Positions 18,267 to 45,200 of a stretch of DNA of 64,000 nucleotides are shown in pieces; the first letter of the stretch is position 1, and each line of letters begins with the position of its first letter. The stretch is from Pleodorina starrii (lineage: Eukaryota > Chlorophyta > Chlorophyceae > Chlamydomonadales > Volvocaceae). The stretch is from assembly GCA_030267565.1 (NCBI GenBank), contig BRXU01000017.1, forward strand, positions 714,501 through 778,500, in the 5' to 3' direction. The position numbers and the translations under genes were made by a program. The notes under the pieces are model-generated. The model saw nothing but the letters and a program-made list of their open reading frames with translations. It was not told the origin of the DNA and ran no database searches.

Positions 18267-21200
18267 ATGGAGAAGGTGCGTGAAACTTGCGGGCCGCTCG
18301 CCGCTGCGATTTCGCAACAACAATATGTTCGCGGGGCGCGGGGGCTGCTGAGGGCAGAGGGCAGCGCTCCCTTCTGATCAATCCGAGCGACTGCCCGACT
18401 GCCTGCCCAATAAAGCAAAGGGCGCATCCATACAAATATTCGCAGCGCGTCTGCTAAACGCCAGCAGACAGATAGACATATGGGAGGATGGCACTTAAGC
18501 CCCGCGGCGCCAACTGGACTGATCGATGACCCGGGGGTCGCTTCACTTCGCTTCACTCCGCTCCGTTTCGCTTCGCTCCGCTCCGCTGTGTCTCGCCGCG
18601 TCTGCTGGCTGCGCTCCGTGCCTTGATAACGAGCCATCCAGCCGCGTCCGTCGATTCAATCAACCAAAGTTGAGCGTCACGCGTGCGAACAGCTGTTTGG
18701 CTTGACCGAAGGTTTTCTGGCACCGCATCGGTCCGCGACAGAGTGTTGCTGGCGATCTGTGACCGGGCTGTCCACTCGCTCGATTCCTGTCATACATCCT
18801 GCAGTCACGCATTCGCACATTCGTCGAATCTTACTATCCCTGATGCTGCCTGCCTGCCTGCCTGCATGTGTTGGACGACGCACAGCTCAAGGAGGCCGCT
18901 GCTGCCATGAAGCTGGGAGTCCAGGAAGCCGCTGCGACCGTGCAAGGCGGCGTCACGTTCGCGAAGGACAAGGCCATGGCCACCGCTGCAGACGTGGCGG
19001 AGCGCGCCGGTCTCACAGCTCAGGTGTGTTGTCGTATCGCAGAGGGCGCGCAGATACGCACCGATACACGCACTGCACCAATCGCGTAATAATAGTGGTG
19101 GTGCAGCGGCGACCCGATGGCAGCGTCGATGGGTCGGGGCCGTGGGGGGCGCCACCGTATTCACACGACAAAACTACCTCCTGCCATAACTACCACGTGA
19201 TTGCATTCAACCCCGATCCCGATCCCGACCCTGCGCTGGCCCCCATCCCGACCGATACAGGGCATCAAGGACAACATCCCGATTATGCCCGAGGGCCAGG
19301 TGTGTGCGGGACTGAGTGGGAGGTTACGTACCCGGGGAGGTTACGTACCCTACTTGTGGCGTGCGAGCGTGCCTCCGTGCGTAAAGACACGCGAGGGAGC
19401 GCCCGGCGCGCTTCACCGCCGGCCCCCTCAGTTCCGCTCCCACCTCCACCTCCTTCCTTCGCTTCCTTCCCCGCCTTGGATCCCCCCACACACGTACCGC
19501 AGACCCAGCAGCCCAGCAGCGAGGCCGAGATGTGGACCAAGCCCGAGTTCATCCGCGAATCTTACGTGGGGGCGGACAAGCTGCTTGGCAGGGTGGCGCT
19601 CATCACGGGAGGGGACAGCGGCATCGGCCGGTCGGTGGCGGTGCACTACGCCAGGGAGGGTGAGTAGCTAAGCTGGCTGGCTAAGCTAGCTAAGGTAGCT
19701 AGGGGCAGGGAGGAAGGGAGGGTGAGCATGGGTCGGGGCCGGGCCCATGGGTCGGGACCGGGCCCATGGGTCGGGGCTGGGCCCATGGGTCGGGGCCGGG
19801 CCCATGGGTCGGGGCTGGGCCCATGGGTCGGGGCCGGGCCCATGGGTCGGGGCTGGGCCCATGGGTCGGGGCCGGGCCCATGGGTCGAGGCCGGGCCCAT
19901 GGGTCGAGGCCGGGCCCATGGGCCGGGGCCGGGCCCATGGGTAGGGGCCGGGCCCATGGGTCGGGGCTGGGCCCATGGGTCGGGGCTGGGCCCATGGGTC
20001 GGGGCTGGGCCCATGGGTCGGGTCTGGGCCCATGGGTCGGGGCTGGGCCCATGGGTCGGGGCTGGGCCCATGGGTAGGGGCGGGGCCCATGGGTCGGGGC
20101 GGGGCCCATGGGTCGGGGCGGGGCCCATGGGTTGAAGCTGGGCCCATGGTCCACCCGGTCGGGGCTGGGCCCATGGGTTGGGGCTGGGCCCATGGATCGG
20201 GGCTGGGCCCATGGGTCGAGGCTGGGCCCATGGGTACGGGCCGGGCCCATGGGTCGGGGCTGGGCCCATGGGTCGGGGCTGGGCCCATGGGTCGGGGCTG
20301 GGCCCATGGGTCGGGGCTGGGCCCATGGGTCGAAGCTGGGCCCATGGTCCACCCGGTCGGGGCTGGGCCCATGGGTCGGGGCTGGGCCCATGGGTAGGGG
20401 CTGGGCCCATGGGTCGGGGCTGGGCCCATGGGTCGGGGCTGGGCCCATGGTCCACCCGGTCGAGGCTGGGCCCATGGGTCGGGGCTGGGCCCATGGTCCA
20501 CTCCGTCGGGGCTGGGCCCATGGATCGGGGCTGGGCCCATGGGTCGGGGGGCCGGGCCCATGGGTCGGGGGGCCGGGCCCATGGGTCGGGGGGCCGGGCC
20601 CATGGGCCCGGCCGGGCCCATGGGTCGGGGGGCCGGGCCCATGGGTCGGGGCCGGGCCAATGGGTCGAGGCCGGGCCCATGGGTCGGGGCCGGGCCCATG
20701 GGTCGGGGCCGGGCCCATGGGTGGGGGCTGGGCCCATGGGTCGGGGCTGGGCCCATGGTCCACTCGGTCGGGGCTGGGCCCATGGATCGTGGCCGGGCCC
20801 ATGGGTCGGGGCCCGGCCCATGGGTCGGGGCTGGGCCCATAGGCCGGTCTGGGCCCATGGGTCGGGGTCGGGCCCATGGGTAGGGGCCGGGCCCATGGGT
20901 TGGGGCTGGGCCCATGGGTTGGGGCTGGGCCCATGGGTCGGGGCCGGGCCCATGGGTTGGGGCTGGGCCCATGGGTCGGGGCTAGGCCCATGGGCCGGTC
21001 TGGGCCCATGGGGCGGGGCTGGGCCCATGGGTGGGGGCTGGGCCCATGGGTGGGGGCTGGGCCCATGGGTCGGGGCCGGCCACATGGGTCGGGGCTGGGC
21101 CCATGGATCGGGGCTGGGCCCATGGGACGGGGCTGGGCCCATGGGTCGGGGCCCGGCCCATGGGTCGGGGCCGGGCCCATGGGTCGGGGCCGGGCCCATG

Positions 21201-24200
21201 GGTCGGGGCTGGGACCATGGGCCGGTCTGGGCCCATAGGTCGGGGCTGGGCCCATGGGTCGGTGCTGGGCCCATGGGTCGGGGTCGTGCCCATGGGTAGG
21301 GGCCGGGCCCATGGGTCGGGGCTGGGCCCATGGGTCGGGGCCGGGCCCATGGGTCGGGGCTGGGCCCATGGGTCGGGGCTGGGCCCATGGGTCGGGGCAG
21401 GGCCCATGGGTCGAGGCTGGGCCCATGGGTCGGGGCCGGGCCCATGGGTCGGGGCTGGGCCCATGGGTTGGGGCCGGGCCCATGGGTCGGGGCCGGGCCC
21501 ATGGGTCGGGGCTGGGCCCATGGGTCGGGGCTGGGCCCATGGGTCGAAGCTGGGCCCATGGGTCGGGGCTGGGCCCATGGGTCGGGGCTGGGCCCATGGT
21601 CCACCCGGTCGGGGCTGGGCCCATGGGTCGGGGCTGGGCCCATGGGTAGGGGCGGGGCCCATGGGTCGGGGCGGGGCCCATGGGTCGGGGCGGGGCCCAT
21701 GGGTCGGGGCTGGGCCCATGGGTCGGGGCTGGGCCCATGGTCCACCCGGTCGAGGCTGGGCCCATGGGTCGGGGCTGGGCCCATGGTCCACTCCGTCGGG
21801 GCTGGGCCCATGGATCGGGGCTGGGCCCATGGGTCGGGGGGCCGGGCCCATGGGTCGGGGGGCCGGGCCCATGGGTCGGGGGGCCGGGCCAATGGGTCGA
21901 GGCCGGGCCCATGGGTCGGGGCCGGGCCCATGGGTCGGGGCCGGGCCCATGGGTGGGGGCTGGGCCCATGGGTCGGGGCTGGGCCCATGGTCCACTCGGT
22001 CGGGGCTGGGCCCATGGATCGTGGCCGGGCCCATGGGTCGGGGCCCGGCCCATGGGTCGGGGCTGGGCCCATAGGCCGGTCTGGGCCCATGGGTCGGGGT
22101 CGGGCCCATGGGTAGGGGCCGGGCCCATGGGTTGGGGCTGGGCCCATGGGTTGGGGCTGGGCCCATGGGTCGGGGCCGGGCCCATGGGTTGGGGCTGGGC
22201 CCATGGGTCGGGGCTAGGCCCATGGGCCGGTCTGGGCCCATGGGGCGGGGCTGGGCCCATGGGTGGGGGCTGGGCCCATGGGTGGGGGCTGGGCCCATGG
22301 GTCGGGGCCGGCCACATGGGTCGGGGCTGGGCCCATGGATCGGGGCTGGGCCCATGGGACGGGGCTGGGCCCATGGGTCGGGGCCCGGCCCATGGGTCGG
22401 GGCCGGGCCCATGGGTCGGGGCTGGGCCCATGGGTCGGGGCTGGGACCATGGGCCGGTCTGGGCCCATAGGTCGGGGCTGGGCCCATGGGTCGGTGCTGG
22501 GCCCATGGGTCGGGGTCGTGCCCATGGGTAGGGGCCGGGCCCATGGGTCGGGGCTGGGCCCATGGGTCGGGGCCGGGCCCATGGGTCGGGGCTGGGCCCA
22601 TGGGTCGGGGCTGGGCCCATGGGTCGGGGCTGGGCCCATGGGTCGAGGCTGTGCCCATGGGTCGGGGCCGGGCACATGGGTCGGGGCTGGGCCCATGGGT
22701 TGGGGCCGGGCCCATGGGTCGGGGCTGGGCCCATGGGTCGGGGCTGGGCCCATGGGTCGGGGCTGGGCCCATGGGTCGGGGCTGGGCCCATGGGTCGGGG
22801 CTGGGCCCATGGGTTGAAGCTGGGCCCATGGTCCACCCGGTCGGGGCTGGGCCCATGGGTTGGGGCTGGGCCCATGGATCGGGGCTGGGCCCATGGGTCG
22901 AGGCTGGGCCCATGGGTAGGGGCCGGGCCCATGGGTCGGGGCTGGGCCCATGGGTCGGGGCTGGGCCCATGGGTCGGGGCTGGGCCCATGGGTCGGGGCT
23001 GGGCCCATGGGTCGAAGCTGGGCCCATGGTCCACCCGGTCGGGGCTGGGCCCATGGGTCGGGGCTGGGCCCATGGGTCGGGGCTGGGCCCATGGGTCGGG
23101 GCGGGGCCCATGGGTCGGGGCGGGGCCCATGGGTCGGGGCGGGGCCCATGGGTCGGGGCGGGGCCCATGGGTCGGGGCTGGGCCCATGGGTCGGGGCTGG
23201 GCCCATGGGTCGGGGCTGGGCCCATGGTCCACCCGGTCGAGGCTGGGCCCATGGGTCGGGGCTGGGCCCATGGTCCACTCCGTCGGGGCTGGGCCCATGG
23301 ATCGGGGCTGGGCCCATGGGTCGGGGCGGGGCCCATGGGTCGGGGCTGGGCCCATGGGTTGGGGCCGGGCCCATGGGTCGGGGCCGGGCCCATGGGTCGG
23401 GGCTGGGCCCATGGGTCGGGGCTGGGCCCATGGGTCGGGGCTGGGCCCATGGGTCGGGGCTGGGCCCATGGGTCGAAGCTGGGCCCATGGTCCACCCGGT
23501 CGGGGCTGGGCCCATGGGTCGGGGCTGGGCCCATGGGTAGGGGCGGGGCCCATGGGTCGGGGCGGGGCCCATGGGTCGGGGCGGGGCCCATGGGTCGGGG
23601 CTGGGCCCATGGGTCGGGGCTGGGCCCATGGTCCACCCGGTCGAGGCTGGGCCCATGGGTCGGGGCTGGGCCCATGGTCCACTCCGTCGGGGCTGGGCCC
23701 ATGGATCGGGGCTGGGCCCATGGGTCGGGGGGCCGGGCCCATGGGTCGGGGGGCCGGGCCCATGGGTCGGGGGGCCGGGCCAATGGGTCGAGGCCGGGCC
23801 CATGGGTCGGGGCCGGGCCCATGGGTCGGGGCCGGGCCCATGGGTCGGGGCCGGGCCCATGGGTGGGGGCTGGGCCCATGGGTCGGGGCTGGGCCCATGG
23901 TCCACTCGGTCGGGGCTGGGCCCATGGATCGTGGCCGGGCCCATGGGTCGGAGCCCGGCCCATGGGTCGGGGCTGGGCCCATAGGCCGGTCTGGGCCCAT
24001 GGGTCGGGGTCGGGCCCATGGGTAGGGGCCGGGCCCATGGGTTGGGGCTGGGCCCATGGGTTGGGGCTGGGCCCATGGGTCGGGGCCGGGCCCATGGGTT
24101 GGGGCTGGGCCCATGGGTCGGGGCTAGGCCCATGGGCCGGTCTGGGCCCATGGATCGGGGCTGGGCCCATGGGTCGAGGCTGGGCCCATGGGTACGGGCC

Positions 24201-27200
24201 GGGCCCATGGGTCGGGGCTGGGCCCATGGGTCGGGGCTGGGCCCATGGGTCGGGGCTGGGCCCATGGGTCGGGGCTGGGCCCATGGGTCGAAGCTGGGCC
24301 CATGGTCCACCCGGTCGGGGCTGGGCCCATGGGTCGGGGCTGGGCCCATGGGTAGGGGCTGGGCCCATGGGTCGGGGCTGGGCCCATGGGTCGGGGCTGG
24401 GCCCATGGTCCACCCGGTCGAGGCTGGGCCCATGGGTCGGGGCTGGGCCCATGGTCCACTCCGTCGGGGCTGGGCCCATGGATCGGGGCTGGGCCCATGG
24501 GTCGGGGGGCCGGGCCCATGGGTCGGGGGGCCGGGCCCATGGGTCGGGGGGCCGGGCCCATGGGCCCGGCCGGGCCCATGGGTCGGGGGGCCGGGCCCAT
24601 GGGTCGGGGCCGGGCCAATGGGTCGAGGCCGGGCCCATGGGTCGGGGCCGGGCCCATGGGTCGGGGCCGGGCCCATGGGTGGGGGCTGGGCCCATGGGTC
24701 GGGGCTGGGCCCATGGTCCACTCGGTCGGGGCTGGGCCCATGGATCGTGGCCGGGCCCATGGGTCGGGGCCCGGCCCATGGGTCGGGGCTGGGCCCATAG
24801 GCCGGTCTGGGCCCATGGGTCGGGGTCGGGCCCATGGGTAGGGGCCGGGCCCATGGGTTGGGGCTGGGCCCATGGGTTGGGGCTGGGCCCATGGGTCTGG
24901 GCCGGGCCCATGGGTTGGGGCTGGGCCCATGGGTCGGGGCTAGGCCCATGGGCCGGTCTGGGCCCATGGGGCGGGGCTGGGCCCATGGGTGGGGGCTGGG
25001 CCCATGGGTGGGGGCTGGGCCCATGGGTCGGGGCCGGCCACATGGGTCGGGGCTGGGCCCATGGATCGGGGCTGGGCCCATGGGACGGGGCTGGGCCCAT
25101 GGGTCGGGGCCCGGCCCATGGGTCGGGGCCGGGCCCATGGGTCGGGGCCGGGCCCATGGGTCGGGGCTGGGACCATGGGCCGGTCTGGGCCCATAGGTCG
25201 GGGCTGGGCCCATGGGTCGGTGCTGGGCCCATGGGTCGGGGTCGTGCCCATGGGTAGGGGCCGGGCCCATGGGTCGGGGCTGGGCCCATGGGTCGGGGCC
25301 GGGCCCATGGGTCGGGGCTGGGCCCATGGGTCGGGGCTGGGCCCATGGGTCGGGGCAGGGCCCATGGGTCGAGGCTGGGCCCATGGGTCGGGGCCGGGCC
25401 CATGGGTCGGGGCTGGGCCCATGGGTTGGGGCCGGGCCCATGGGTCGGGGCCGGGCCCATGGGTCGGGGCTGGGCCCATGGGTCGGGGCTGGGCCCATGG
25501 GTCGGGGCTGGGCCCATGGGTCGGGGCTGGGCCCATGGGTCGAAGCTGGGCCCATGGTCCACCCGGTCGGGGCTGGGCCCATGGGTCGGGGCTGGGCCCA
25601 TGGGTAGGGGCGGGGCCCATGGGTCGGGGCGGGGCCCATGGGTCGGGGCGGGGCCCATGGGTCGGGGCTGGGCCCATGGGTCGGGGCTGGGCCCATGGTC
25701 CACCCGGTCGAGGCTGGGCCCATGGGTCGGGGCTGGGCCCATGGTCCACTCCGTCGGGGCTGGGCCCATGGATCGGGGCTGGGCCCATGGGTCGGGGGGC
25801 CGGGCCCATGGGTCGGGGGGCCGGGCCCATGGGTCGGGGGGCCGGGCCAATGGGTCGAGGCCGGGCCCATGGGTCGGGGCCGGGCCCATGGGTCGGGGCC
25901 GGGCCCATGGGTCGGGGGCCGGGCCCATGGGTGGGGGCTGGGCCCATGGGTCGGGGCTGGGCCCATGGTCCACTCGGTCGGGGCTGGGCCCATGGATCGT
26001 GGCCGGGCCCATGGGTCGGGGCCCGGCCCATGGGTCGGGGCTGGGCCCATAGGCCGGTCTGGGCCCATGGGTCGGGGTCGGGCCCATGGGTAGGGGCCGG
26101 GCCCATGGGTTGGGGCTGGGCCCATGGGTTGGGGCTGGGCCCATGGGTCGGGGCCGGGCCCATGGGTTGGGGCTGGGCCCATGGGTCGGGGCTAGGCCCA
26201 TGGGCCGGTCTGGGCCCATGGGGCGGGGCTGGGCCCATGGGTGGGGGCTGGGCCCATGGGTGGGGGCTGGGCCCATGGGTCGGGGCCGGCCACATGGGTC
26301 GGGGCTGGGCCCATGGATCGGGGCTGGGCCCATGGGATGGGGCTGGGCCCATGGGTCGGGGCCCGGCCCATGGGTCGGGGCCGGGCCCATGGGTCGGGGC
26401 TGGGCCCATGGGTCGGGGCTGGGACCATGGGCCGGTCTGGGCCCATAGGTCGGGGCTGGGCCCATGGGTCGGTGCTGGGCCCATGGGTCGGGGTCGTGCC
26501 CATGGGTAGGGGCCGGGCCCATGGGTCGGGGCTGGGCCCATGGGTCGGGGCCGGGCCCATGGGTCGGGGCTGGGCCCATGGGTCGGGGCTGGGCCCATGG
26601 GTCGGGGCTGGGCCCATGGGTCGAGGCTGTGCCCATGGGTCGGGGCCGGGCCCATGGGTCGGGGCTGGGCCCATGGGTTGGGGCCGGGCCCATGGGTCGG
26701 GGCTGGGCCCATGGGTCGGGGCTGGGCCCATGGGTCGGGGCTGGGCCCATGGGTCGGGGCTGGGCCCATGGGTCGGGGCTGGGCCCATGGGTCGGGGGGC
26801 CGGGCCCATGGGTCGGGGGGCCGGGCCCATGGGTCGGGGGCTGGGCCCATGGGTCGGGGGGCTGGGCCCATGGATCGGGGCTGGGCCCATGGGTCGGGGC
26901 TGGGCCCATGGGTCGGGGCTGGGCCCATGGGTCGGGGCTGGGCCCATGGGTCGGGGCTGGGCCCATGGGTCGGGGCTGGGCCCAGGGGTCGGGGCTGGGC
27001 CCATGGGTGGGGGCGGGTCCCATGGGTGGGGGCTGGGCCCATGGGTCGGGGCTGGGCCCATGGGTCGGGGCTGGGCCCATGGGTAGGGGCTGTGCCCATG
27101 GGTCGGGGCTGGGCCATGGGTCGGGGCTGGGCCCATGGGTCGGGGCTGGGCCCATGGGTCGGGGGCTGGGCCCATGGGTCGGGGCCGGGCCCATGGGTCG

Positions 27201-30200: not shown

Positions 30201-33200
30201 CCCATGGGTCGGGGCCGGGCCCATGGGTAGGGGCCGGGCCCATGGGTCGGGGCCGGGCCCATGGGTCGGGGCCGGGCCCATGGGTCGGGGGGCCGGGCCC
30301 ATGGGTCGGGGGGCCGGGCCCATGGGTCGGGGCCGGGCCCATGGGTCGGGGCTGGGCCCATGGGTCGGGGCTGGGCCCATGGGTCGGGGCTGGGCCCATG
30401 GGTCGGGGCCGGGCCCATGGGTCGGGGCTGGGCCCATGGGTTGGGGCCGGGCCCATGGGTCGGGGCTGGGCCCATGGGTCGGAGCCGGGCCCATGGGTCG
30501 GGGCCGGGCCCATGGGTTGGGGCCGGGCCCATGGGTCGGGGCTTGGCCCATGGGTCGGGGCTGGGCCCATGGGACGGGGCTGGGACCATGGGTCGGGGCC
30601 CGGCCCATGGGTCGGGGCCGGGCCCATGGGTCGGGGCGGGGCCCATGGGTCGGGGCGGGGCCCATGGGTCGGGGCGGGGCCCATGGGTCGGGGCTGGGCC
30701 CATGGGTCGGGGCTGGGCCCATGGGTCGGGGCTGGGCCCATGGGTCGGGGCTGGGCCCATGGTCCACCCGGTCGAGGCTGGGCCCATGGGTCGGGGCTGG
30801 GCCCATGGTCCACTCCGTCGGGGCTGGGCCCATGGATCGGGGCTGGGCCCATGGGTCGGGGCCGGGCCCATGGGTCGGGGCCGGGCCCATGGGTCGGGGC
30901 CGGGCCCATGGGTCGGGGCTGGGCCCATGGTCCACTCGGTCGGGGCTGGGCCCATGGATCGTGGCCGGGCCCATGGGTCGGGGCCCGGCCCATGGGTCGG
31001 GGCTGGGCCCATAGGCCGGTCTGGGCCCATGGGTCGAGGCCGGGCCCATGGGTCGGGGCCGGAACCATGGGTAGGGGCCGGGCCCATGGGCCGGGGCCGG
31101 GCCCATGGGTCGGGGTCGGGCCCATGGGTAGGGGCCGGGCCCATGGGTTGGGGCTGGGCCCATGGGTTGGGGCTGGGCCCATGGGTCGGGGCCGGGCCCA
31201 TGGGTTGGGGCTGGGCCCATGGGTCGGGGCTAGGCCCATGGGCCGGTCTGGGCCCATGGGGCGGGGCTGGGCCCATGGGTGGGGGCTGGGCCCATGGGTT
31301 GGGGCTGGGCCCATGGGTCGGGGCCGGGCCCATGGGTTGGGGCTGGGCCCATGGGTCGGGGCTAGGCCCATGGGCCGGTCTGGGCCCATGGGTCGGGGCT
31401 GGGCCCATGGGTCGGGGCTGGGCCCATGGGTCGGGGCCGGCCACATGGGTCGGGGCTGGGCCCATGGATCGGGGCTGGGCCCATGGGACGGGGCTGGGAC
31501 CATGGGTCGGGGCCCGGCCCATGGGTCGGGGCCGGGCCCATGGGTCGGGGCTGGGCCCATGGGTCGGGGCTGGGACCATGGGCCGGTCTGGGCCCATGGG
31601 TCGGGGCTGGGCCCATGGGTCGGGGCTGGGCCCATGGGTCGGGGTCGGGCCCATGGGTAGGGGCCGGGCCCATGGGTCGGGGCCGGGCCCATGGGTCGGG
31701 GCCGGGCCCATGGGTCGGGGGGCCGGGCCCATGGGTCGGGGCTGGGCCCATGGGTCGGGGCTGGGCCCATGGGTCGGGGCTGGGCCCATGGTCCACCCGG
31801 TCGAGGCTGGGCCCATGGGTCGGGGCTGGGCCCATGGTCCACTCCGTCGGGGCTGGGCCCATGGATCGGGGCTGGGCCCATGGGTCGGGGCCGGGCCCAT
31901 GAGTCGGGGCCGGGCCCATGGGTCGGGGCCGGGCCCATGGGTCGGGGCTGGGCCCATGGTCCACTCGGTCGGGGCTGGGCCCATGGATCGTGGCCGGGCC
32001 CATGGGTCGGGGCCCGGCCCATGGGTCGGGGCTGGGCCCATAGGCCGGTCTGGGCCCATGGGTCGAGGCCGGGCCCATGGGTCGGGGCCGGAACCATGGG
32101 TAGGGGCCGGGCCCATGGGCCGGGGCCGGGCCCATGGGTCGGGGTCGGGCCCATGGGTAGGGGCCGGGCCCATGGGTTGGGGCTGGGCCCATGGGTCGGG
32201 GCTGGGCCCATGGGTCGGGGCCGGGCCCATGGGTTGGGGCTGGGCCCATGGGTCGGGGCTAGGCCCATGGGCCGGTCTGGGCCCATGGGGCGGGGCTGGG
32301 CCCATGGGTGGGGGCTGGGCCCATGGGTTGGGGCTGGGCCCATGGGTCGGGGCCGGGCCCAGGGGTTGGGGCTGGGCCCATGGGTCGGGGCTAGGCCCAT
32401 GGGCCGGTCTGGGCCCATGGGTCGGGGCTGGGCCCATGGGTCGGGGCTGGGCCCATGGGTCGGGGCCGGCCACATGGGTCGGGGCTGGGCCCATGGATCG
32501 GGGCTGGGCCCATGGGACGGGGCTGGGACCATGGGTCGGGGCCCGGCCCATGGGTCGGGGCCGGGCCCATGGGTCGGGGCTGGGCCCATGGGTCGGGGCT
32601 GGGACCATGGGCCGGTCTGGGCCCATGGGTCGGGGCTGGGCCCATGGGTCGGGGCTGGGCCCATGGGTCGGGGTCGGGCCCATGGGTAGGGGCCGGGCCC
32701 ATGGGTCGGGGCCGGGCCCATGGGTCGGGGCCGGGCCCATGGGTCGGGGGGCCGGGCCCATGGGTCGGGGCCGGGCCCATGGGTCGGGGCTGGGCCCATG
32801 GGTCGGGGCTGGGCCCATGGGTCGGGGCTGGGCCCATGGGTCGGGGCCGGGCCCATGGGTCGGGGCTGGGCCCATGGGTTGGGGCCGGGCCCATGGGTCG
32901 GGGCTGGGCCCATGGGTCGGAGCCGGGCCCATGGGTCGGGGCCGGGCCCATGGGTTGGGGCCGGGCCCATGGGTCGGGGCTTGGCCCATGGGTCGGGGCC
33001 GGGCCCATGGGTCGGGGCCGGGCCCATGGGTCGAGGCTGGGCCCATGGGCCGGTCTGGGCCCATGGGTCGGGGCTGGGCCCATGGGTCGGGGGGCCGGGC
33101 CCATGGGTCGGGGGGCCGGGCCCATGGGCCGGGGGGCCGGGCCCATGGGTCGGGGGGCCGGGCCCATGGGTCGGGGGGCCGGGCCCATGGGTCGGGGGGC

Positions 33201-36200
33201 CGGGCCCATGGGTCGGGGGGCCGGGCCCATGGGTCGGGGGGCCGGGCCCATGGGTCGGGGGGCCGGGCCCATGGGTCGGGGGGCCGGGCCCATGGGTCGG
33301 GGGGCCGGGCCCATGGGTCGGGGGGCCGGGCCCATGGGTCGGGGGGCCGGGCCCATGGGCCGGGGGGCCGGGCCCATGGGTCGGGGGGCCGGGCCCATGG
33401 GTCGGGGGGCCGGGCCCATGGGTCGGGGGGCCGGGCCCATGGGTCGGGGGGCCGGGCCCATGGGTCGGGGGGCCGGGCCCATGGGTCGGGGGGCCGGGCC
33501 CATGGGTCGGGGGGCCGGGCCCATGGGTCGGGGGGCCGGGCCCATGGGTCGGGGGGCCGGGCCCATGGGTCGGGGGGCCGGGCCCATGGGTCGGGGGGCC
33601 GGGCCCATGGGTCGGGGGGCCGGGCCCATGGGTCGGGGGGCCGGGCCCATGGGTCGGGGGGCCGGGCCCATGGGTCGGGGGGCCGGGCCCATGGGTCGGG
33701 GGGCCGGGCCCATGGGTCGGGGGGCCGGGCCCATGGGTCGGGGGGCCGGGCCCATGGGTCGGGGGGCCGGGCCCATGGGTCGGGGGGCCGGGCCCATGGG
33801 TCGGGGGGCCGGGCCCATGGGTCGGGGGGCCGGGCCCATGGGTCGGGGGGCCGGGCCCATGGGTCGGGGGGCCGGGCCCATGGGTCGGGGGGCCGGGCCC
33901 ATGGGTCGGGGGGCCGGGCCCATGGGTCGGGGGGCCGGGCCCATGGTCCACTTGGTCGGGGCTGGGCCCATGGATCGTGGCCGGGCCCATGGGTCGGGGC
34001 CCGGCCCATGGGTCGGGGCTTGGCCCATGGGTCGGTCTGGGCCCATGGGTCGGGGTCGGGCCCATGGGTAAGGGCCGGGCCCATGGGTCGGGGCTGGGCC
34101 CATGGGTCGGGGCCGGGCCCATGGGTTGGGGCCGGGCCCATGGGTTGGGGCTGGGCCCATGGGTCGGGGCTAGGCCCATGGGCCGGTCTGGGCCCATGGG
34201 TCGGGGCTGGGCCCATGGGTGGGGGCTGGGCCCATGGGTCGGGGCCGGCCACATGGGTCGGGGCTGGGCCCATGGGACGGGGCTGGGCCCATGGGACGGG
34301 GCCCGGCCCATGGGTCGGGGCCGGGCCCATGGGTCGGGGCTGGGCCCATGGGTCGGGGCTGGGCCCATGGGTCGGGGCTGGGCCCATGGGTCGGGGCTGG
34401 GCCCATGGGTCGGGGCCGGCCACATGGGTCGGGGCTGGGCCCATGGATCGGGGCTGGGCCCATGGGACGGGGCTGGGACCATGGGTCGGGGCCCGGCCCA
34501 TGGGTCGGGGCCGGGCCCATGGGTCGGGGCCGGGCCCATGGGTCGGGGCTGGGCCCATGGGCCGGTCTGGGCCCATGGGTCGGGGCTGGGCCCATGGGTC
34601 GGGGTCGGGCCCATGGGTAGGGGTCGGGCCCATGGGTCGGGGCCGGGCCCATGGGTCGGGGCCGGGCCCATGGGTCGGGGCCGGGCCCATGGGTCGGGGG
34701 GCCGGGCCCATGGGTCGGGGCTGGGCCCATGGGTCGGGGCTGGGCCCATGGGTCGGGGCCGGGCCCATGGGTCGGGGCTGGGCCCATGGGTTGGGGCCGG
34801 GCCCATGGGTCGGGGCTTGGCCCATGGGTCGTGGCCGGGCCCATGGGTCGGGGCCGGGCCCATGGGTTGGGGCCGGGCCCATGGGTCGGGGCTTGGCCCA
34901 TGGGTCGGGGCCGGGCCCATGGGTCGGGGCCGGGCCCATGGGTCGGGGCTGGGCCCATGGGCCGGTCTGGGCCCATGGGTCGGGGCTGGGCCCATGGGTC
35001 GGGGGGCCGGGCCCATGGGTCGGGGGGCCGGGCCCATGGGCCGGGGGGCCGGGCCCATGGGTCGGGGGGCCGGGCCCATGGGTCGGGGGGCCGGGCCCAT
35101 GGGTCGGGGGGCCGGGCCCATGGGTCGGGGGGCCGGGCCCATGGGTCGGGGGGCCGGGCCCATGGGTCGGGGGGCCGGGCCCATGGGTCGGGGGGCCGGG
35201 CCCATGGGTCGGGGGGCCGGGCCCATGGGTCGGGGGGCCGGGCCCATGGGTCGGGGGGCCGGGCCCATGGGTCGGGGGGCCGGGCCCATGGGTCGGGGGG
35301 CCGGGCCCATGGGTCGGGGGGCCGGGCCCATGGGTCGGGGGGCCGGGCCCATGGGTCGGGGGGCCGGGCCCATGGGTCGGGGGGCCGGGCCCATGGGTCG
35401 GGGGGCCGGGCCCATGGGTCGGGGGGCCGGGCCCATGGGTCGGGGGGCCGGGCCCATGGGTCGGGGGGCCGGGCCCATGGGTCGGGGGGCCGGGCCCATG
35501 GGTCGGGGGGCCGGGCCCATGGGTCGGGGGGCCGGGCCCATGGGTCGGGGGGCCGGGCCCATGGGTCGGGGGGCCGGGCCCATGGGTCGGGGGGCCGGGC
35601 CCATGGGTCGGGGGGCCGGGCCCATGGTCCACTCGGTCGGGGCTGGGCCCATGGATCGTGGCCGGGCCCATGGGTCGGGGCCCGGCCCATGGGTCGGGGC
35701 TTGGCCCATGGGTCGGTCTGGGCCCATGGGTCGGGGTCGGGCCCATGGGTAGGGGCCGGGCCCATGGGTCGGGGCTGGGCCCATGGGTCGGGGCCGGGCC
35801 CATGGGTTGGGGCCGGGCCCATGGGTTGGGGCTGGGCCCATGGGTCGGGGCTAGGCCCATGGGCCGGTCTGGGCCCATGGGCCGGGGCTGGGCCCATGGG
35901 TGGGGGCTGGGCCCATGGGTCGGGGCCGGCCACATGGGTCGGGGCTGGGCCCATGGATCGGGGCTGGGCCCATGGGACGGGGCTGGGCCCATGGGTCGGG
36001 GCCCGGCCCATGGGTCGGGGCCGGGCCCATGGGTCGGGGCTGGGCCCATGGGTCGGGGCTGGGACCATGGGTCGGGGCTGGGCCCATGGGTCGGGGCTGG
36101 GCCCATGGGTCGGGGCCGGCCACATGGGTCGGGGCTGGGCCCATGGATCGGGGCTGGGCCCATGGGACGGGGCTGGGACCATGGGTCGGGGCCCGGCCCA

Positions 36201-39200
36201 TGGGTCGGGGCCGGGCCCATGGGTCGGGGCTGGGCCCATGGGTCGGGGCTGGGACCATGGGCCGGTCTGGGCCCATGGGTCGGGGCTGGGCCCATGGGTC
36301 GGGGCTGGGCCCATGGGTCGGGGTCGGGCCCATGGGTCGGGGCCGGGCCCATGGGTCGGGGCCGGGCCCATGGGTCGGGGCCGGGCCCATGGGTCGGGGG
36401 GCCGGGCCCATGGGTCGGGGCTGGGCCCATGGGTCGGGGCTGGGCCCATGGGTCGGGGCCGGGCCCATGGGTCGGGGCTGGGCCCATGGGTCGGAGCCGG
36501 GCCCATGGGTCGGGGCCGGGCCCATGGGTTGGGGCCGGGCCCATGGGTCGGGGCTTGGCCCATGGGTCGGGGCCGGGCCCATGGGTCGGGGCTGGGCCCA
36601 TGGGTCGGGGCTGGGCCCATGGGCCGGTCTGGGCCCATGGGTCGGGGCTGGGCCCATGGGTGGGGGCTGGGCCCATGGGTGGGGGCCGGGCCCATGGGTC
36701 GGGGCCGGGCCCATGGGTTGGGGCCGGGCCCATGGGTCGGGGCCAGGCCCATGGGCCGGTCTGGGCCCATGGGTCGGGGCTGGGCCCATGGGTCGGGGCT
36801 GGGCCCATGGGTCGGGGCCGGCCACATGGGTCGGGGCTGGGCCCATGGATCGGGGCTGGGCCCATGGGACGGGGCTGGGACCATGGGTCGGGGCCCGGCC
36901 CATGGGTCGGGGCCGGGCCCATGGGTCGGGGCTGGGCCCATGGGTCGGGGCTGGGACCATGGGCCGGTCTGGGCCCATGGGTCGGGGCTGGGCCCATGGG
37001 TCGGGGCTGGGCCCATGGGTCGGGGTCGGGCCCATGGGTCGGGGCCGGGCCCATGGGTCGGGGCCGGGCCCATGGGTCGGGGGGCCGGGCCCATGGGTCG
37101 GGGGGCCGGGCCCATGGGTCGGGGCTGGGCCCATGGGTCGGGGCTGGGCCCATGGGTCGGGGCTGGGCCCATGGTCCACCCGGTCGAGGCTGGGCCCATG
37201 GGTCGGGGCTGGGCCCATGGTCCACTCCGTCGGGGCTGGGCCCATGGATCGGGGCTGGGCCCATGGGTCGGGGCCGGGCCCATGGGTCGGGGCCGGGCCC
37301 ATGGGTCGGGGCCGGGCCCATGGGTCGGGGCTGGGCCCATGGTCCACTCGGTCGGGGCTGGGTCCATTGATCGTGGCCGGGCCCATGGGTCGGGGCCCGG
37401 CCCATGGGTCGGGGCTGGGCCCATAGGCCGGTCTGGGCCCATGGGTCGAGGCCGGGCCCATGGGTCGGGGCCGGAACCATGGGTAGGGGCCGGGCCCATG
37501 GGCCGGGGCCGGGCCCATGGGTCGGGGTCGGGCCCATGGGTAGGGGCCGGGCCCATGGGTTGGGGCTGGGCCCATGGGTTGGGGCTGGGCCCATGGGTCG
37601 GGGCCGGGCCCATGGGTTGGGGCTGGGCCCATGGGTCGGGGCTAGGCCCATGGGCCGGTCTGGGCCCATGGGGCGGGGCTGGGCCCATGGGTGGGGGCTG
37701 GGCCCATGGGTTGGGGCTGGGCCCATGGGTCGGGGCCGGGCCCATGGGTTGGGGCTGGGCCCATGGGTCGGGGCTAGGCCCATGGGCCGGTCTGGGCCCA
37801 TGGGTCGGGGCTGGGCCCATGGGTCGGGGCTGGGCCCATGGGTCGGGGCCGGCCACATGGGTCGGGGCTGGGCCCATGGATCGGGGCTGGGCCCATGGGA
37901 CGGGGCTGGGACCATGGGTCGGGGCCCGGCCCATGGGTCGGGGCCGGGCCCATGGGTCGGGGCTGGGCCCATGGGTCGGGGCTGGGCCCATGGGCCGGTC
38001 TGGGCCCATGGGTCGGGGCTGGGCCCATGGGTCGGGGCTGGGCCCATGGGTCGGGGTCGGGCCCATGGGTAGGGGCCGGGCCCATGGGTCGGGGCCGGGC
38101 CCATGGGTCGGGGCCGGGCCCATGGGTCGGGGCCGGGCCCATGGGTCGGGGCCGGGCCCATGGGCCGGTCTGGGCCCATGGGTCGGGGCTGGGCCCATGG
38201 GTCGGGGGGCCGGGCCCATGGGTCGGGGGGCCGGGCCCATGGGCCGGGGGGCCGGGCCCATGGGTCGGGGGGCCGGGCCCATGGGTCGGGGGGCCGGGCC
38301 CATGGGTCGGGGGGCCGGGCCCATGGGTCGGGGGGCCGGGCCCATGGGTCGGGGGGCCGGGCCCATGGGTCGGGGGGCCGGGCCCATGGGTCGGGGGGCC
38401 GGGCCCATGGGTCGGGGGGCCGGGCCCATGGGTCGGGGGGCCGGGCCCATGGGTCGGGGGGCCGGGCCCATGGGTCGGGGGGCCGGGCCCATGGGTCGGG
38501 GGGCCGGGCCCATGGGTCGGGGGGCCGGGCCCATGGGCCGGGGGGCCGGGCCCATGGGTCGGGGGGCCGGGCCCATGGGTCGGGGGGCCGGGCCCATGGG
38601 TCGGGGGGCCGGGCCCATGGGTCGGGGGGCCGGGCCCATGGGTCGGGGGGCCGGGCCCATGGGTCGGGGGGCCGGGCCCATGGGTCGGGGGGCCGGGCCC
38701 ATGGGTCGGGGGGCCGGGCCCATGGGTCGGGGGGCCGGGCCCATGGGTCGGGGGGCCGGGCCCATGGGTCGGGGGGCCGGGCCCATGGGTCGGGGGGCCG
38801 GGCCCATGGGTCGGGGGGCCGGGCCCATGGGTCGGGGGGCCGGGCCCATGGGTCGGGGGGCCGGGCCCATGGGTCGGGGGGCCGGGCCCATGGGTCGGGG
38901 GGCCGGGCCCATGGGTCGGGGGGCCGGGCCCATGGGTCGGGGGGCCGGGCCCATGGGTCGGGGGGCCGGGCCCATGGGTCGGGGGGCCGGGCCCATGGGT
39001 CGGGGGGCCGGGCCCATGGGTCGGGGGGCCGGGCCCATGGGTCGGGGGGCCGGGCCCATGGGTCGGGGGGCCGGGCCCATGGGTCGGGGGGCCGGGCCCA
39101 TGGGTCGGGGGGCCGGGCCCATGGGTCGGGGGGCCGGGCCCATGGGTCGGGGGGCCGGGCCCATGGGTCGGGGGGCCGGGCCCATGGGTCGGGGGGCCGG

Positions 39201-42200
39201 GCCCATGGGTCGGGGGGCCGGGCCCATGGGTCGGGGGGCCGGGCCCATGGGTTGGGGCTGGGCCCATGGGTCGGGGCTAGGCCCATGGGCCGGGCTGGGC
39301 CCATGGGGCGGGGCTGGGCCCATGGGTGGGGGCTGGGCCCATGGGTCGGGGCCGGCCACATGGGTCGGGGCCGGGCCCATGGATCGGGGCTGGGCCCATG
39401 GGACGGGGCCCGGCCCATGGGTCGGGGCCCGGCCCATGGGTCGGGGCCGGGCCCATGGGTCGGGGCTGGGCCCATGGGTCGGGGCTGGGACCATGGGCCG
39501 GTCTGGGCCCATAGGTCGGGGCTGGGCCCATGGGTCGGTGCTGGGCCCATGGGTAGGGGCCGGGCCCATGGGTAGGGGCCGGGCCCATGGGTCGGGGCCG
39601 GGCCCATGGGTCGGGGCTGGGCCCATGGGTCGGGGCTGGGCCCATGGGTCGGGGCCGGGCCCATGGGTCGGGGCTGGGCCCATGGGTCGGGGCCGGGCCC
39701 ATGGGTCGGGGCTGGGCCCATGGGTCGGGGCTGGGCCCATGGGTCGGGGCTGGGCCCATGGGTCGGGGCTGGGCCCATGGGTCGGGGCTGGGCCCATGGG
39801 TTGAAGCTGGGCCCATGGTCCACCCGGTCGGGGCTGGGCCCATGGGTTGGGGCTGGGCCCATGGATCGGGGCTGGGCCCATGGGTCGAGGCTGGGCCCAT
39901 GGGTAGGGGCCGGGCCCATGGGTCGGGGCTGGGCCCATGGGTCGGGGCTGGGCCCATGGGTCGGGGCTGGGCCCATGGGTCGGGGCTGGGCCCATGGGTC
40001 GAAGCTGGGCCCATGGTCCACCCGGTCGGGGCTGGGCCCATGGGTCGGGGCTGGGCCCATGGGTCGGGGCTGGGCCCATGGGTAGGGGCGGGGCCCATGG
40101 GTCGGGGCGGGGCCCATGGGTCGGGGCGGGGCCCATGGGTCGGGGCTGGGCCCATGGGTCGGGGCTGGGCCCATGGGTCGGGGCTGGGCCCATGGTCCAC
40201 CCGGTCGAGGCTGGGCCCATGGGTCGGGGCTGGGCCCATGGTCCACTCCGTCGGGGCTGGGCCCACGGATCGGGGCTGGGCCCATGGGTCGGGGCCGGGC
40301 CCATGGGTCGGGGCCGGGCCCATGGGTCGGGGCTGGGCCCATGGGTCGGGGCTGGGCCCATGGTCCACTCGGTCGGGGCTGGGCCCATGGATCGTGGCCG
40401 GGCCCATGGGTCGGGGCCCGGCCCATGGGTCGGGGCTGGGCCCATAGGCCGGTCTGGGCCCATGGGTCGAGGCCGGGCCCATGGGTCGGGGCCGGAACCA
40501 TGGGTAGGGGCCGGGCCCATGGGCCGGGGCCGGGCCCATGGGTCGGGGTCGGGCCCATGGGTAGGGGCCGGGCCCATGGGTTGGGGCTGGGCCCATGGGT
40601 CGGGGCTGGGCCCATGGGTCGGGGCCGGGCCCATGGGTTGGGGCTGGGCCCATGGGTCGGGGCTAGGCCCATGGGCCGGTCTGGGCCCATGGGTCGGGGC
40701 TGGGCCCATGGGTCGGGGCTGGGCCCATGGGTCGGGGCCGGCCACATGGGTCGGGGCTGGGCCCATGGATCGGGGCTGGGCCCATGGGACGGGGCTGGGC
40801 CCATGGGTCGGGGCCCGGCCCATGGGTCGGGGCCGGGCCCATGGGTCGGGGCTGGGCCCATGGGTCGGGGCTGGGACCATGGGCCGGTCTGGGACCATGG
40901 GTCGGGGCTGGGCCCATGGGTCGGGGCTGGGCCCATGGGTCGGGGTCGGGCCCATGGGTAGGGGCCGGGCCCATGGGTCGGGGCCGGGCCCATGGGTCGG
41001 GGGGCCGGGCCCATGGGTCGGGGGGCCGGGCCCATGGGTCGGGGGGCCGGGCCCATGGGTCGGGGGGCCGGGCCCATGGGTCGGGGGGCTGGGCCCATGG
41101 GTCGAGGCTGGGCCCATGGGTCGGGGCCGGGCCCATGGGTCGGGGCTGGGCCCATGGGTTGGGGCCGGGCCCATGGGTCGGGGCTGGGCCCATGGGTCGG
41201 AGCCGGGCCCATGGGTCGGGGCCGGGCCCATGGGTTGGGGCCGGGCCCATGGATCGGGGCTTGGCCCATGGGTCGGGGCCGGGCCCATGGGTCGGGGCCG
41301 GGCCCATGAGTCGGGGCCGGGCCCATGGGTCGGGGCCGGGCCCATGGGTCGGGGCCGGGCCCATGGGTCGGGGCCGGGCCCATGGGTCGGGGCCGGGCCC
41401 ATGGGTCGGGGCTGGGCCCATGGGTCGGGGCTGGGCCCATGGGCCGGTCTGGGCCCATGGGTCGGGGCTGGGCCCATGGGTAGGGGCCGGGCCCATGGGT
41501 CGGGGCTGGGCCCATGGGCCGGGGGGCCGGGCCCATGGGTCGGGGGGCCGGGCCCATGGGTCGGGGGGCCGGGCCCATGGGTCGGGGGGCCGGGCCCATG
41601 GGTCGGGGGGCCGGGCCCATGGGTCGGGGGGCCGGGCCCATGGGTCGGGGGGCCGGGCCCATGGGTCGGGGGGCCGGGCCCATGGGTCGGGGGGCCGGGC
41701 CCATGGGTCGGGGGGCCGGGCCCATGGGTCGGGGGGCCGGGCCCATGGGTCGGGGGGCCGGGCCCATGGGTCGGGGGGCCGGGGCCCATGGGTCGGGGGG
41801 CCGGGGCCCATGGGTCGGGGGGCCGGGGCCCATGGGTCGGGGGGCCGGGGCCCATGGGTCGGGGGGCCGGGCCCATGGGTCGGGGGGCCGGGCCCATGGG
41901 TCGGGGGGCCGGGCCCATGGGTCGGGGGGCCGGGCCCATGGGTCGGGGGGCCGGGCCCATGGGTCGGGGGGCCGGGCCCATGGGTCGGGGGGCCGGGCCC
42001 ATGGGTCGGGGGGCCGGGCCCATGGGCCGGGGGGCCGGGCCCATGGGCCGGGGGGCCGGGCCCATGGGCCGGGGGGCCGGGCCCATGGGCCGGGGGGCCG
42101 GGCCCATGGGCCGGGGGGCCGGGCCCATGGGCCGGGGGGCCGGGCCCATGGGCCGGGGGGCCGGGCCCATGGGCCGGGGGGCCGGGCCCATGGGCCGGGG

Positions 42201-45200
42201 GGCCGGGCCCATGGGCCGGGGGGCCGGGCCCATGGGCCGGGGGGCCGGGCCCATGGGTCGGGGGGCCGGGCCCATGGGTCGGGGCTGGGCCCATTCGGAA
42301 ATCCATTTGTGTGTATGCCATCATCATCGACCGCGACGTGCCATCGATTTATCCATCATGGCTGTACGGCAGGTGCTGACGTGTTCATCATGTATCTGGA
42401 CGAGCACGAGGATGCGCTGGTGACCAAGCAGCTGGTCGAGGCGGAGGGCCGCCGCTGTGTCACCATGGCGGCGAATGTACGGGACCACAAGGTACGGCAG
42501 TCGTACCAGATTGGTACATTCCGCCGGAGGGTCCGCAGGATCCGGAGGGTCGAAGTTGGTCTGCAGCAGCGGTGCTTTCCTTCCGAGGGCTGAATGCCTG
42601 AGTCCATGATCTGCTGTTCGAGGACCTTGGGGTAATTCCGCGCTACGAGCTACGAGCTACGGGCCACGACGTGTAAGGCAGGATCCGAGTGAATGTTGCC
42701 CTACTCTGTCCTTCTCTGCCCCCGATTAGCGTGTGCGTTGAAGCACGAGGAGAGGCGGCGGCTGCGAAGGGTCGACCCGGCCCGCCGGCCCTTCACCGCT
42801 GAACTGATAAGCCCTCCTCCTCCCCCCTCCCCCAATCCACCCCTTGCGTCCACAGGCCTGCTGTGAGGCGGTGGAGCGCTGCGTGAGCGAGCTGGGCAAG
42901 CTGGACATCCTGGTAATTAAGCGGTTAGGACTTGGGAGTTAGTCGGTTGGGAGTTGGTTGGCAGTTGAAGTGGAAAATCGATTGGACTTTCGTCGGGTTT
43001 GCGCTGTCGTGTTTGCGCTGCCGTTGCTGTCGCCCACAGCCAGGATGCAACATTTAGGTTACCCAGGTACCCATTGCGCGCCCTCATCGACCCCACAAGT
43101 CCACATACATTCGCCACCGCCCGTCCTCGCGTATGTGTAAACCGACTCCTTATCGTATGTCTACATAGCAAATGCGCCGGCCTAGGTCTCTGGCCTTTAC
43201 TTGAATTATCCGAGTAATTATCACTCCGCAATAGCCACCCCCACTTGTGCTCGCCGCCCAGCGAGCATTAGCAGTTTGCCCTTGAACGGTAACTGCCCAA
43301 CCAACTGTCCCAACCAAATCAGACCAACTGCCGCAACTGCTTATCACCAGGTGAACAACGCCGCCATTCAGCACTACCGCTCCTCCATTACCGACATTAA
43401 GGACGAGGACCTCGAGGCCACTTTTGAGACCAACATTCTGGGCATGTTCTATATGGCCATGGTACGGATGAAGGGTACGGCAGGGTACGGCAGGCGGGCG
43501 ACACCGGGGGGCGCGACATCGTCACCCGCCCCCTGCTGCTCCCCCAACTCGATCCGCGGTCGGCATCTGAGCAAGCCGCGCTGAACGCTCGCTATCCTGG
43601 TCCGCCGGAGTTGCCCCGCTGTGCACTGTCGTTAGTTCACAGCTTCACACCCGCCGTACTGTGTCGTACCGTACTGCAGGCCGCCGTGAAGCACCTTCCC
43701 GAGGGCGGCTCCATCATCAACACCACCTCCGTCACCGCCTACGCTGGCGAGGCGCACCTGCTGGACTACTCGGCCACCAAGGGCGCCATCACGTCTTTCA
43801 CGCGAGGACTGTCGGGGCAGCTGGCGAGCAAGGGTGAGGGGCTGGAGGGTTCAGAGGGTTTAATGGGTTTGGAGTCGGAGGTGGATTTCATTTTCGTTGT
43901 CATATGGTTGCATGTTTTTTCCTGTACTTTCTGTGTACGCGTGCGCTCGTGTATGTTTGTTGGTAAAAATGACCCATGGGTCACTCACCGCATGCACGCA
44001 GGCATCCGTGTCAATGCGGTGGCTCCGGGCCCCATTTGGACACCGCTCATTCCCGCCACATTCCCGAGGACAGCGATGCTGATGTGGCAGAAGCAGGTGA
44101 GGTCTCTGTAGATAGGTGATGCTTGCGGAGGAGGCAGATTCTGTGTGCTGTACTAGATGCACGGCCGGAAGGGTGACGCGGGCTTAATCAGGCAGCTTGG
44201 CCGTGGCGGCGGTACAACGGCCTCACACGATGCTGTACACAGTAAGAAAACAGTCGTGCCGGCACCGTATGTCATTGCTCACTGATCGAACACTTCTGTA
44301 ATTTCCTTGCTTGTCGGATTTCCAAATGCATGATATTCCCTCCCATCACGCCGTTCTGCCCCCCGGCCCCGGGCCCTCCTTTTCTTGGATCACCCATTCA
44401 TGCCCTGCCGTACATCACAGGTGCCAATGCAGCGAGCCGGACAGCCTTCTGAGGTGAGCAATGAATGAAGCAAACTTTTAATGCAATGCGGTGGGGTGCC
44501 GATCTGCCGAAGCCACTGTACAATGCGGCGGCTTGATGGGCACGACGGGGTCTGAAACCCTTCGGCCGCTTGCTCGCAGTACCGCAGCTCAACCTCCCTA
44601 CTGTCGCCTTCCACCTCGACCGATTGGCGCCCTCTCCTCCCCCTTGCTTGCCCCCCTCCCTCCCGCGCTGCAATCAGTCACTCACTCACTCTCTGCACGC
44701 CAAGGAACCGGAATTACATACACCACCTACCCCCTGTGACCCGCCGCCTTCCTGCCCCTCTCCCCTCCACTCTCCATTCTCTCCCTTCCTCTCCTCCCCG
44801 CCCGTTCTCTCCCTCCCCACTCTTCCCCCCTCCCTCCCTCTCCTGCCCCCTCCCCCCTCCCGCCCTCCCTCCCTCCCTCTCTCCCCCTCCCCAGGTGGGT
44901 CCCTGCTACGTCTTTCTGGCGAGTGCGGACGGAAGCTACTTCAGCGGACAGGTGATGACTGATGGGGGGGGCGGGGCGGGCTGATAGGTGTTGTCTTCTT
45001 CGTCGTCGCCGTCTTAGGACGTTAGGAGGTGCCACGCTTTCGGCCAAGGACCGCGCAGCGATATAATGTCGGTGGTACCGGAACCCTGGAATGTCGTGTT
45101 GAGCGCCTGCCGAACGCCGCCTGCGGTGCAGCAAGTGGGTGTGTCGGGCTGCGGGTCCCTCCGTCCGTCGTCCTGGACGTCGCCGTTGCCCTTGTCGCCG

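Follow-up and report, generated by a model that had tools for sequence, protein, structure and literature searches.

A 22.7-kb intron filled by a dispersed 19-bp minisatellite in one of two tandem short-chain dehydrogenase genes of Pleodorina starrii

Intron 4 of copy A, one of two tandem short-chain dehydrogenase genes of Pleodorina starrii NIES-4479, owes its length of 22.7 kb to the accumulation within it of a 19-base repeat that occurs scattered through the genome. The initial annotation had described an intron of about 22.7 kb consisting almost entirely of a 19/21-bp repeat, an orthologous copy B intron of 242 bp without the array, and an extreme, repeat-driven intron growth confined to one member of the tandem pair, the reading frame being intact; all of this holds (Table 1). 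One point needs correcting: the repeat also occurs beyond copy A intron 4, on other contigs and within introns in three further genes. In the explanation that we consider quite probable, a piece of the dispersed minisatellite family would have arrived in copy A intron 4 as a copy from elsewhere and would have expanded in place to 22.6 kb as single units, and blocks hundreds of bases long, were duplicated again and again through unequal exchange or replication slippage; this growth would have been tolerated, and transcription of copy A most likely still runs across the array, which is then spliced out. The reading builds on the observed anatomy of the array, the difference between the paralogues, the dispersal of the family, private variants, block duplications and constraint on the protein.

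Table 1. Features of copies A and B in the window (the whole stretch of 64,000 nucleotides analysed).
Feature	Positions	Strand	Remarks
Copy A exons 1-4 with introns 1-3	18267..19659	+	joined open frame, GT...AG, pairing with copy B
Copy A exons 1-4 individually	18267-18275, 18886-19023, 19261-19299, 19503-19659	+
Solitary unit-like sequence, copy A intron 2	19123..19141	+	14-bp exact match
Copy A intron 4	19660..42372	+	22,713 bp; donor GTGAGT, acceptor GGCAG; phase-1 join giving AREGADV
Copy A intron 4, 5' remainder	19660..19726	+	first 63 bp alignable to copy B intron 4
Minisatellite array	19727..42294	+	19-bp unit CATGGGTCGGGGCTGGGCC, sense strand G-rich; approximately 1,148 units, including 21-bp and 27-bp variants
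21-bp doublet-rich part of the array	33079..42015	+	130 of 142 doublets of the 21-bp unit, in several blocks
Copy A intron 4, 3' remainder	42295..42372	+	last 32 bp alignable to copy B intron 4
Copy A exons 5-12 with introns 5-11	42373..45394	+	bulk of the dehydrogenase, including the NNAAIQ and YSATK motifs
Copy B, tandem paralogue	46642..51056	+	357 aa, 12 exons; database protein P0001, PLESTB_001158100
Copy B intron 4	47974..48215	+	242 bp, without array

Both copies encode an intact short-chain dehydrogenase, with open coding sequences of 335 aa (A) and 357 aa (B). Intron boundaries were set by exon-by-exon comparison of the paralogues; GT...AG is present at 11 of 11 introns in either copy, and the ten introns other than intron 4 range from 168 to 610 bp (copy A) and from 166 to 584 bp (copy B). 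An intact copy A frame had been claimed before and is borne out by 335 codons free of stops and frameshifts. The joined protein matches PF13561 (196.6 bits) and PF00106 (165 bits) above the Pfam cut-off, and these domains, together with a cofactor motif and YSATK (YxxxK) in the translation, place copy A among the short-chain dehydrogenases/reductases, of which we take the two motifs to be the signature. Exon structure and paralogue pairing place the entire array inside an intron of a protein-coding gene, downstream of the donor and upstream of the acceptor.

TRF reports a single array with period 19, 1,148.2 copies and 89% matches, i.e. one unit repeated head to tail (19 bp × 1,148), the long array that characterises intronic VNTRs and satellite-filled introns. 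The figure agrees with the approximately 1,150 G-rich sense-strand units noted initially, and non-overlapping G4-type motifs number 657 on the plus strand and 0 on the minus strand. Spacings from one CCATGG to the next are mostly 19 bp (768), besides 21 bp (185), 27 bp (49) and 18 bp (37). In exact genome searches all 142 matches of the 21-bp doublet and all 48 matches of the 27-bp variant pattern fall within the copy A array, and these private variants indicate that the array grew in place. Block duplication is evident from exact internal repeats, which reach 817 bp, with spacings of e.g. 3,958 and 5,178 bp. Outside the array, the window contains two unit-like matches of the kind found in copy A intron 2, with 0.1 expected per shuffle (20 shuffles). 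The phase of the array boundaries, inspected by eye as a hint to the insertion site, follows no clear rule.

The lengths of array (22.6 kb) and intron (22,713 bp) are those of the assembly, which derives from PacBio long reads and, according to the accessible part of its description (PMC10256686), was merged with quickmerge and gap-filled with TGS-GapCloser. Tandem repeats are prone to error in such steps, so merging and gap filling might have produced the length or the placement of the array; this is highly improbable given that the longest exact internal repeat of 817 bp leaves reads of several kb placeable, that private variants are found throughout the array, and that the separately assembled female strain has the same gene interrupted at the same intron. 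The strain comparison comprises proteins alone, from male and female strains. In the female strain, the copy A gene model is split precisely at intron 4: P0121 ('PLESTF_000660000, partial', 114 aa) is identical to copy A exons 1-4 and ends at the exon 4 donor. P0006 (215 aa, other strains) is identical to the last 215 aa of joined copy A and begins at the first Met of exon 5. An intact 335-aa model is absent from the 120 proteins in the database listing, as would be expected if so large an intron had misled the annotation, but equally if the transcript were broken.

The 19-bp minisatellite is a genome-wide dispersed family, a new finding here. Exact 29-mers of the family occur 9,624 times in the genome, 367 of them in the window, and the loci are spread over at least 11 contigs (C1, C3, C5, C7, C9, C11, C13, C15, C16, C17 and C33), i.e. 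the same unit is present at many unlinked loci, as in a dispersed satellite family. By extrapolation the family totals roughly 0.45 Mb, and at least one array, on C1, appears to exceed the copy A array in length. Arrays carried by a transposon would have non-satellite flanks or terminal repeats in common. Among the matches listed, C7 carries at least five arrays (1182352-1222820 and 1350003) with common flanks; the boundaries of the other arrays inspected and of the window array look unrelated, as judged by eye. For copy A intron 4, neither a target-site duplication nor a flank in common with another array was found. A literature search, conducted largely without full texts, retrieved no paper on this array, and the word 'satellite' occurs 0 times in the main text of the P. 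starrii genome paper.

Gene context was assessed for 25 arrays or array pieces including the window array. Four are intronic (the window array, one on C9, L039 and L040), and in L035-L038 the array occupies the entire fetched stretch. The array at C1:3452152, which has the 3' end of a dynein heavy chain on one side and an MBOAT-like frame (below the Pfam cut-off) on the other, and the array at C1:5931689, situated between esterase-like and ribonuclease T2 frames on the same strand, are probably intergenic. Pfam was applied to 20 flank frames, picked by a codon score that was trained on copies A and B only and that also scores low-complexity repeats, on both strands.

The sense strand of the copy A array (AG o/e 0.19) contains 6 CAG and 85 YAG in 22.6 kb, versus 586 CAG and 604 YAG on the antisense strand, as if introns admitted only arrays without acceptor-like AG on the sense strand. 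However, two of the four intronic arrays are reversed, with 34 and 20 CAG on the gene strand, and the C9 array, sense-oriented like that of the window, retains 40 AG in 1,218 bp; these arrays refute orientation selection as a strict rule, and we give it hardly any credence. A rule by which arrays are tolerated only with a G-rich sense strand is excluded by the same two arrays, which are antisense. In unit type, GTCGGGG outnumbers GTCGAGG by 789 to 37 in copy A, and GTCGAGG is the more frequent in 17 of 19 other arrays or pieces counted (L035-L038 left out; in one of the 17 by only 28 versus 26), a difference that also speaks for growth in place. It is quite unlikely that a mobile 19-bp minisatellite repeatedly settles in P. 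starrii introns and balloons beyond 20 kb without killing the gene, its sense-oriented units losing AG (GTCGAGG to GTCGGGG) and the array thereby being hidden from the acceptor search; if true, satellite evolution would be shaped by intron residence. The loss of AG is seen in a single array, and the C9 array keeps AG (35 GTCGAGG versus 23 GTCGGGG).

The sequences quoted earlier as shared ends of both introns 4 are present, but the ten other A/B intron pairs likewise align only partially and mainly at their ends, so that common ends are the norm for this pair and prove neither clean insertion nor precise loss. Apart from the array, copy A intron 4 retains 67 bp on its 5' side and 78 bp on its 3' side, with 63 and 32 bp, respectively, alignable to the copy B intron; as this remainder falls short of 242 bp and the intron interiors fail to align, an exact empty site cannot be demonstrated. 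In this gene pair, intron interiors turn over freely and ends with splice signals are kept, which would make growth of the array tolerable. Between the two histories first proposed, gain after duplication or precise loss from B, gain is the more parsimonious, although the shared ends demonstrate neither. An array ancestral to both copies and then almost completely deleted from B would agree with the failure of the copy B interior to align with the non-array rest of A, a failure that points to turnover of that interior; yet it requires a near-complete 22-kb deletion, copy B has no unit-like remnant, only A has the 21-bp and 27-bp variants and the remaining introns are all 166-610 bp, and we regard this history as very unlikely. 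A seed for in-place origin still visible in copy B is unsupported, its intron 4 containing no unit-like sequence (its score is equalled or exceeded in 437 of 500 shuffles of that intron). An introner, an element that creates introns where none stood before, is ruled out by copy B, in which an intron occupies this very position but lacks the array.

Silencing of copy A, or a split gene, with transcription or splicing blocked by the array and only copy B working, would agree with the public copy A protein models found, which are split at the array, and with a G-rich, G4-prone sense strand across 22.6 kb. Against it stand the intact frame and splice sites described above and the residues themselves: at the 33 sites differing between A and B, Volvox, Gonium and Tetrabaena favour A at 20 and B at 5, with 8 ties, and after residue 62 they favour A at 16 and B at 2, with 4 ties, so that A, retaining the ancestral-type residue, is the conservative copy. 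Per-site silent change exceeds replacement change on either side of the array: upstream of it, exons 1-4 have a pN/pS of 0.32 (Fisher p 2e-3), and downstream, exons 5-12 have one of 0.29 (p 1e-5). Should the array be very recent, these points lose their weight, since A may have been conserved before the array arose and could then perhaps have been silenced recently. We consider silencing unlikely. Splicing of copy A across the array is the likelier state, because purifying selection is detected on both sides, A is conservative and the female model ends at the exon 4 donor.

The tandem copies form a natural control, one gene in one neighbourhood with and without a 22.7-kb repeat intron, and permit direct measurement of the transcription and splicing cost of so large a G-rich array within an intron; the host is a haploid alga of which three strains have been sequenced. 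A dispersed minisatellite within introns of several genes bears on how introns enlarge, and also on the breakage of public gene models at such sites.

Three known systems offer comparison, as far as the accessible parts of their sources extend. Tandem repeats inside green-algal introns are familiar from Chlamydomonas reinhardtii and Volvox carteri, in which tandem-repeat density is highest in introns among the regions surveyed (PMC3887541); unlike the P. starrii array, the abundant intronic motifs there are GT/AC dinucleotides, and in the accessible part of that survey no individual intron is described as filled with a dispersed minisatellite of kilobase scale. TRACT, a 30-bp intronic VNTR of human CACNA1C, a working gene, with arrays of 3-30+ kb and distinct unit variants (PMC13131567, preprint), shares the minisatellite-sized unit, the kilobase-scale array in an intron and the distinct variants, but it belongs to one human gene and occurs as short and long alleles, whereas the algal array is paralogue-specific and belongs to a genome-wide dispersed family. 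In Drosophila kl-3 and kl-5, satellite DNA likewise makes up introns of protein-coding genes, and the fly genes stay functional; these gigantic introns comprise megabases of simple satellite and expression of the genes needs RNA-binding proteins (PMC6508621), whereas the intron of the haploid alga, in a gene for an enzyme, measures 22.7 kb. With tandem-repeat-filled introns of human and fly as known analogues, copy A intron 4 is striking yet not unprecedented.

The tandem paralogues copy A and copy B both encode short-chain dehydrogenases (335 and 357 aa, respectively; copy B is PLESTB_001158100 of Pleodorina starrii). Intron 4 of copy A encloses a single tandem array with a 19-bp period. The initial annotation had described a huge satellite intron of about 1,150 units in copy A opposite a short intron in copy B, and both statements hold, with 22,713 bp vs 242 bp and 1,148 copies. 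The remaining introns of both copies comprise 166-610 bp. Coding intron medians of 198-343 bp are given for six core-Reinhardtinia species (PMC8226300), and the genome of the bisexual strain NIES-4479 is described with 95 contigs and 136.1 Mb (PMC10256686).

Positions of the repeats and associated features (C1, C7, C9 and C11 are contigs of the same genome)
Feature	Sequence	Position	Array strand relative to gene
Copy A intron 4	window	19660-42372	
Array in copy A intron 4	window	19727-42294	sense
33-bp tandem repeat in copy B exon 2	window	47239-47357	
300-bp direct repeat	window	10111-10410, 15723-16022	
G-rich tandem repeats	window	9676-10361, 14754-15973	
Long array	C1	4760895, still running at 4788896	
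Five arrays with common flanks	C7	1182352-1222820, 1350003-1352037	
Family matches spaced as on C11	C9	688422-692289	
Family matches spaced as on C9	C11	104323-108190	
Array in PLAT gene	C9	2689718-2690936	sense
Inverted repeat	C9	~2689.6-2689.7 kb	
Array in P450-like gene	C7	3880702-3881423	antisense
Array in methyltransferase gene	C7	3963472-3963987	antisense

All 142 genome matches of a 21-bp doublet and all 48 of a 27-bp variant lie inside the copy A array. It is rich in GTCGGGG units (789 vs 37 GTCGAGG); GTCGAGG outnumbers GTCGGGG in 17 of the 19 other arrays or array pieces counted. Exact copies of blocks several hundred bases long lie within the array at kilobase spacings. Variants, unit type and blocks fit repeated block duplication in place following a first arrival in the intron. 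Such growth would proceed by unequal exchange or replication slippage, possibly aided by a G-rich displaced strand. Elsewhere in the window, the two copies of a direct repeat (97% identity, 5.6 kb apart) lie next to G-rich tandem repeats of 15-30 bp.

The family is dispersed over the genome. A 36-mer of about two units has 284 matches (166 inside the window), a GTCGAGG-type 68-mer 1,873, and a 29-mer 9,624, with 367 inside the window and 1,980 in 95,950 bp sampled from other arrays. Extrapolated from this 29-mer density in a non-random sample, the family occupies about 0.45 Mb outside the window; among the matches listed it is placed on at least 11 contigs. The C1 array, most of whose middle is known from pattern matches only, is about 28 kb or longer if unbroken. 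By the standards of the family the window array is long, although a longer one probably exists. Five C7 arrays, among the matches listed, have non-satellite flank stretches of about 150 bp to 2.7 kb in common, most long ones 85-100% identical; satellite and flank were therefore duplicated together there. A 391-aa open frame in this flank has no match in Pfam. The identical internal spacing of family matches in C9 and C11 suggests a recent segmental duplication carrying an array.

Three further arrays are intronic, each with a GT donor before, an AG acceptor after and the frame as expected. One divides a PLAT domain: the downstream exon alone scores 26.6 bits and the joined exons 42.7 bits (profile positions 1-107), while the upstream peptide by itself has no PLAT match. 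By eye, a near-perfect inverted repeat (~28-bp arms) adjoins the low-coordinate end of this array; next comes a C-rich tandem repeat of the CCCCCTCA type. The second separates two exons of a P450-like gene, whose joined peptide reaches 20.5 bits, below the cut-off of 22.8, the upstream peptide by itself giving no match. The third is flanked by the final two exons of a methyltransferase gene, whose domain scores 42.2 bits; the last of these exons was called from splice sites, stop codon and a family motif, not from Pfam.

The 215-aa end of copy A matches solved short-chain dehydrogenase chains (e.g. 3i3o, 5jyd, 3r3s). The N-terminal part of the copies is built from 11-residue repeats, which we take to be LEA-like in appearance; Pfam gives no match for this part to back the label. 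Copy B exon 2 exceeds that of copy A by 22 codons, the difference falling inside a tandem repeat of 33 bp (11 residues). The tree joins A and B with a support of 0.968, Volvox branches next (0.821), and the branch of A is shorter (0.027 vs 0.095). The copies differ at 33 residues in the tree alignment and at 32/335 in the pairwise alignment. At the 33 residues Volvox, Gonium and Tetrabaena favour A in 20 cases and B in 5 (8 ties); past residue 62 the tally is 16, 2 and 4. Overall, the pN/pS ratio, which compares the paralogues and gives no array date, is 0.30 (Fisher p 1.9e-7); in the exons before the array it is 0.32 and in those after it 0.29.

A 114-aa protein of the female strain, tagged partial and lying on a 721,714-bp contig, corresponds exactly to exons 1-4 and terminates at the exon 4 donor; a 215-aa protein carrying female and male names begins at the first Met of exon 5. 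In the female strain the two locus tags carry widely separated numbers (000660000 and 000198800), so the female assembly presumably breaks within or close to the array. None of the 120 proteins in the matches listed is a full-length copy A model. The Tetrabaena socialis orthologue P0014 has its annotated start at the same internal Met as the P. starrii protein P0006, both with 215 aa.

Intron interiors of the pair turn over and their ends are retained; a growing repeat is thus tolerated while the splice ends survive, and the array is most likely without adaptive role. Its sense strand contains few acceptor-like triplets (6 CAG in 22.6 kb), a scarcity that may help the gene to tolerate it. As a requirement this scarcity was rejected, because the family also occurs in introns in antisense and the sense array of the PLAT gene retains AGs.

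Precedents are described in CACNA1C, whose TRACT has a 30-bp unit and spans 3-30+ kb (PMC13131567), and, for satellite-filled introns, in Drosophila kl-3 and kl-5 (PMC6508621). These cases show that both the scale and the principle of such intronic arrays already exist; distinctive in P. starrii are the control offered by the paralogue and the dispersal of the family.
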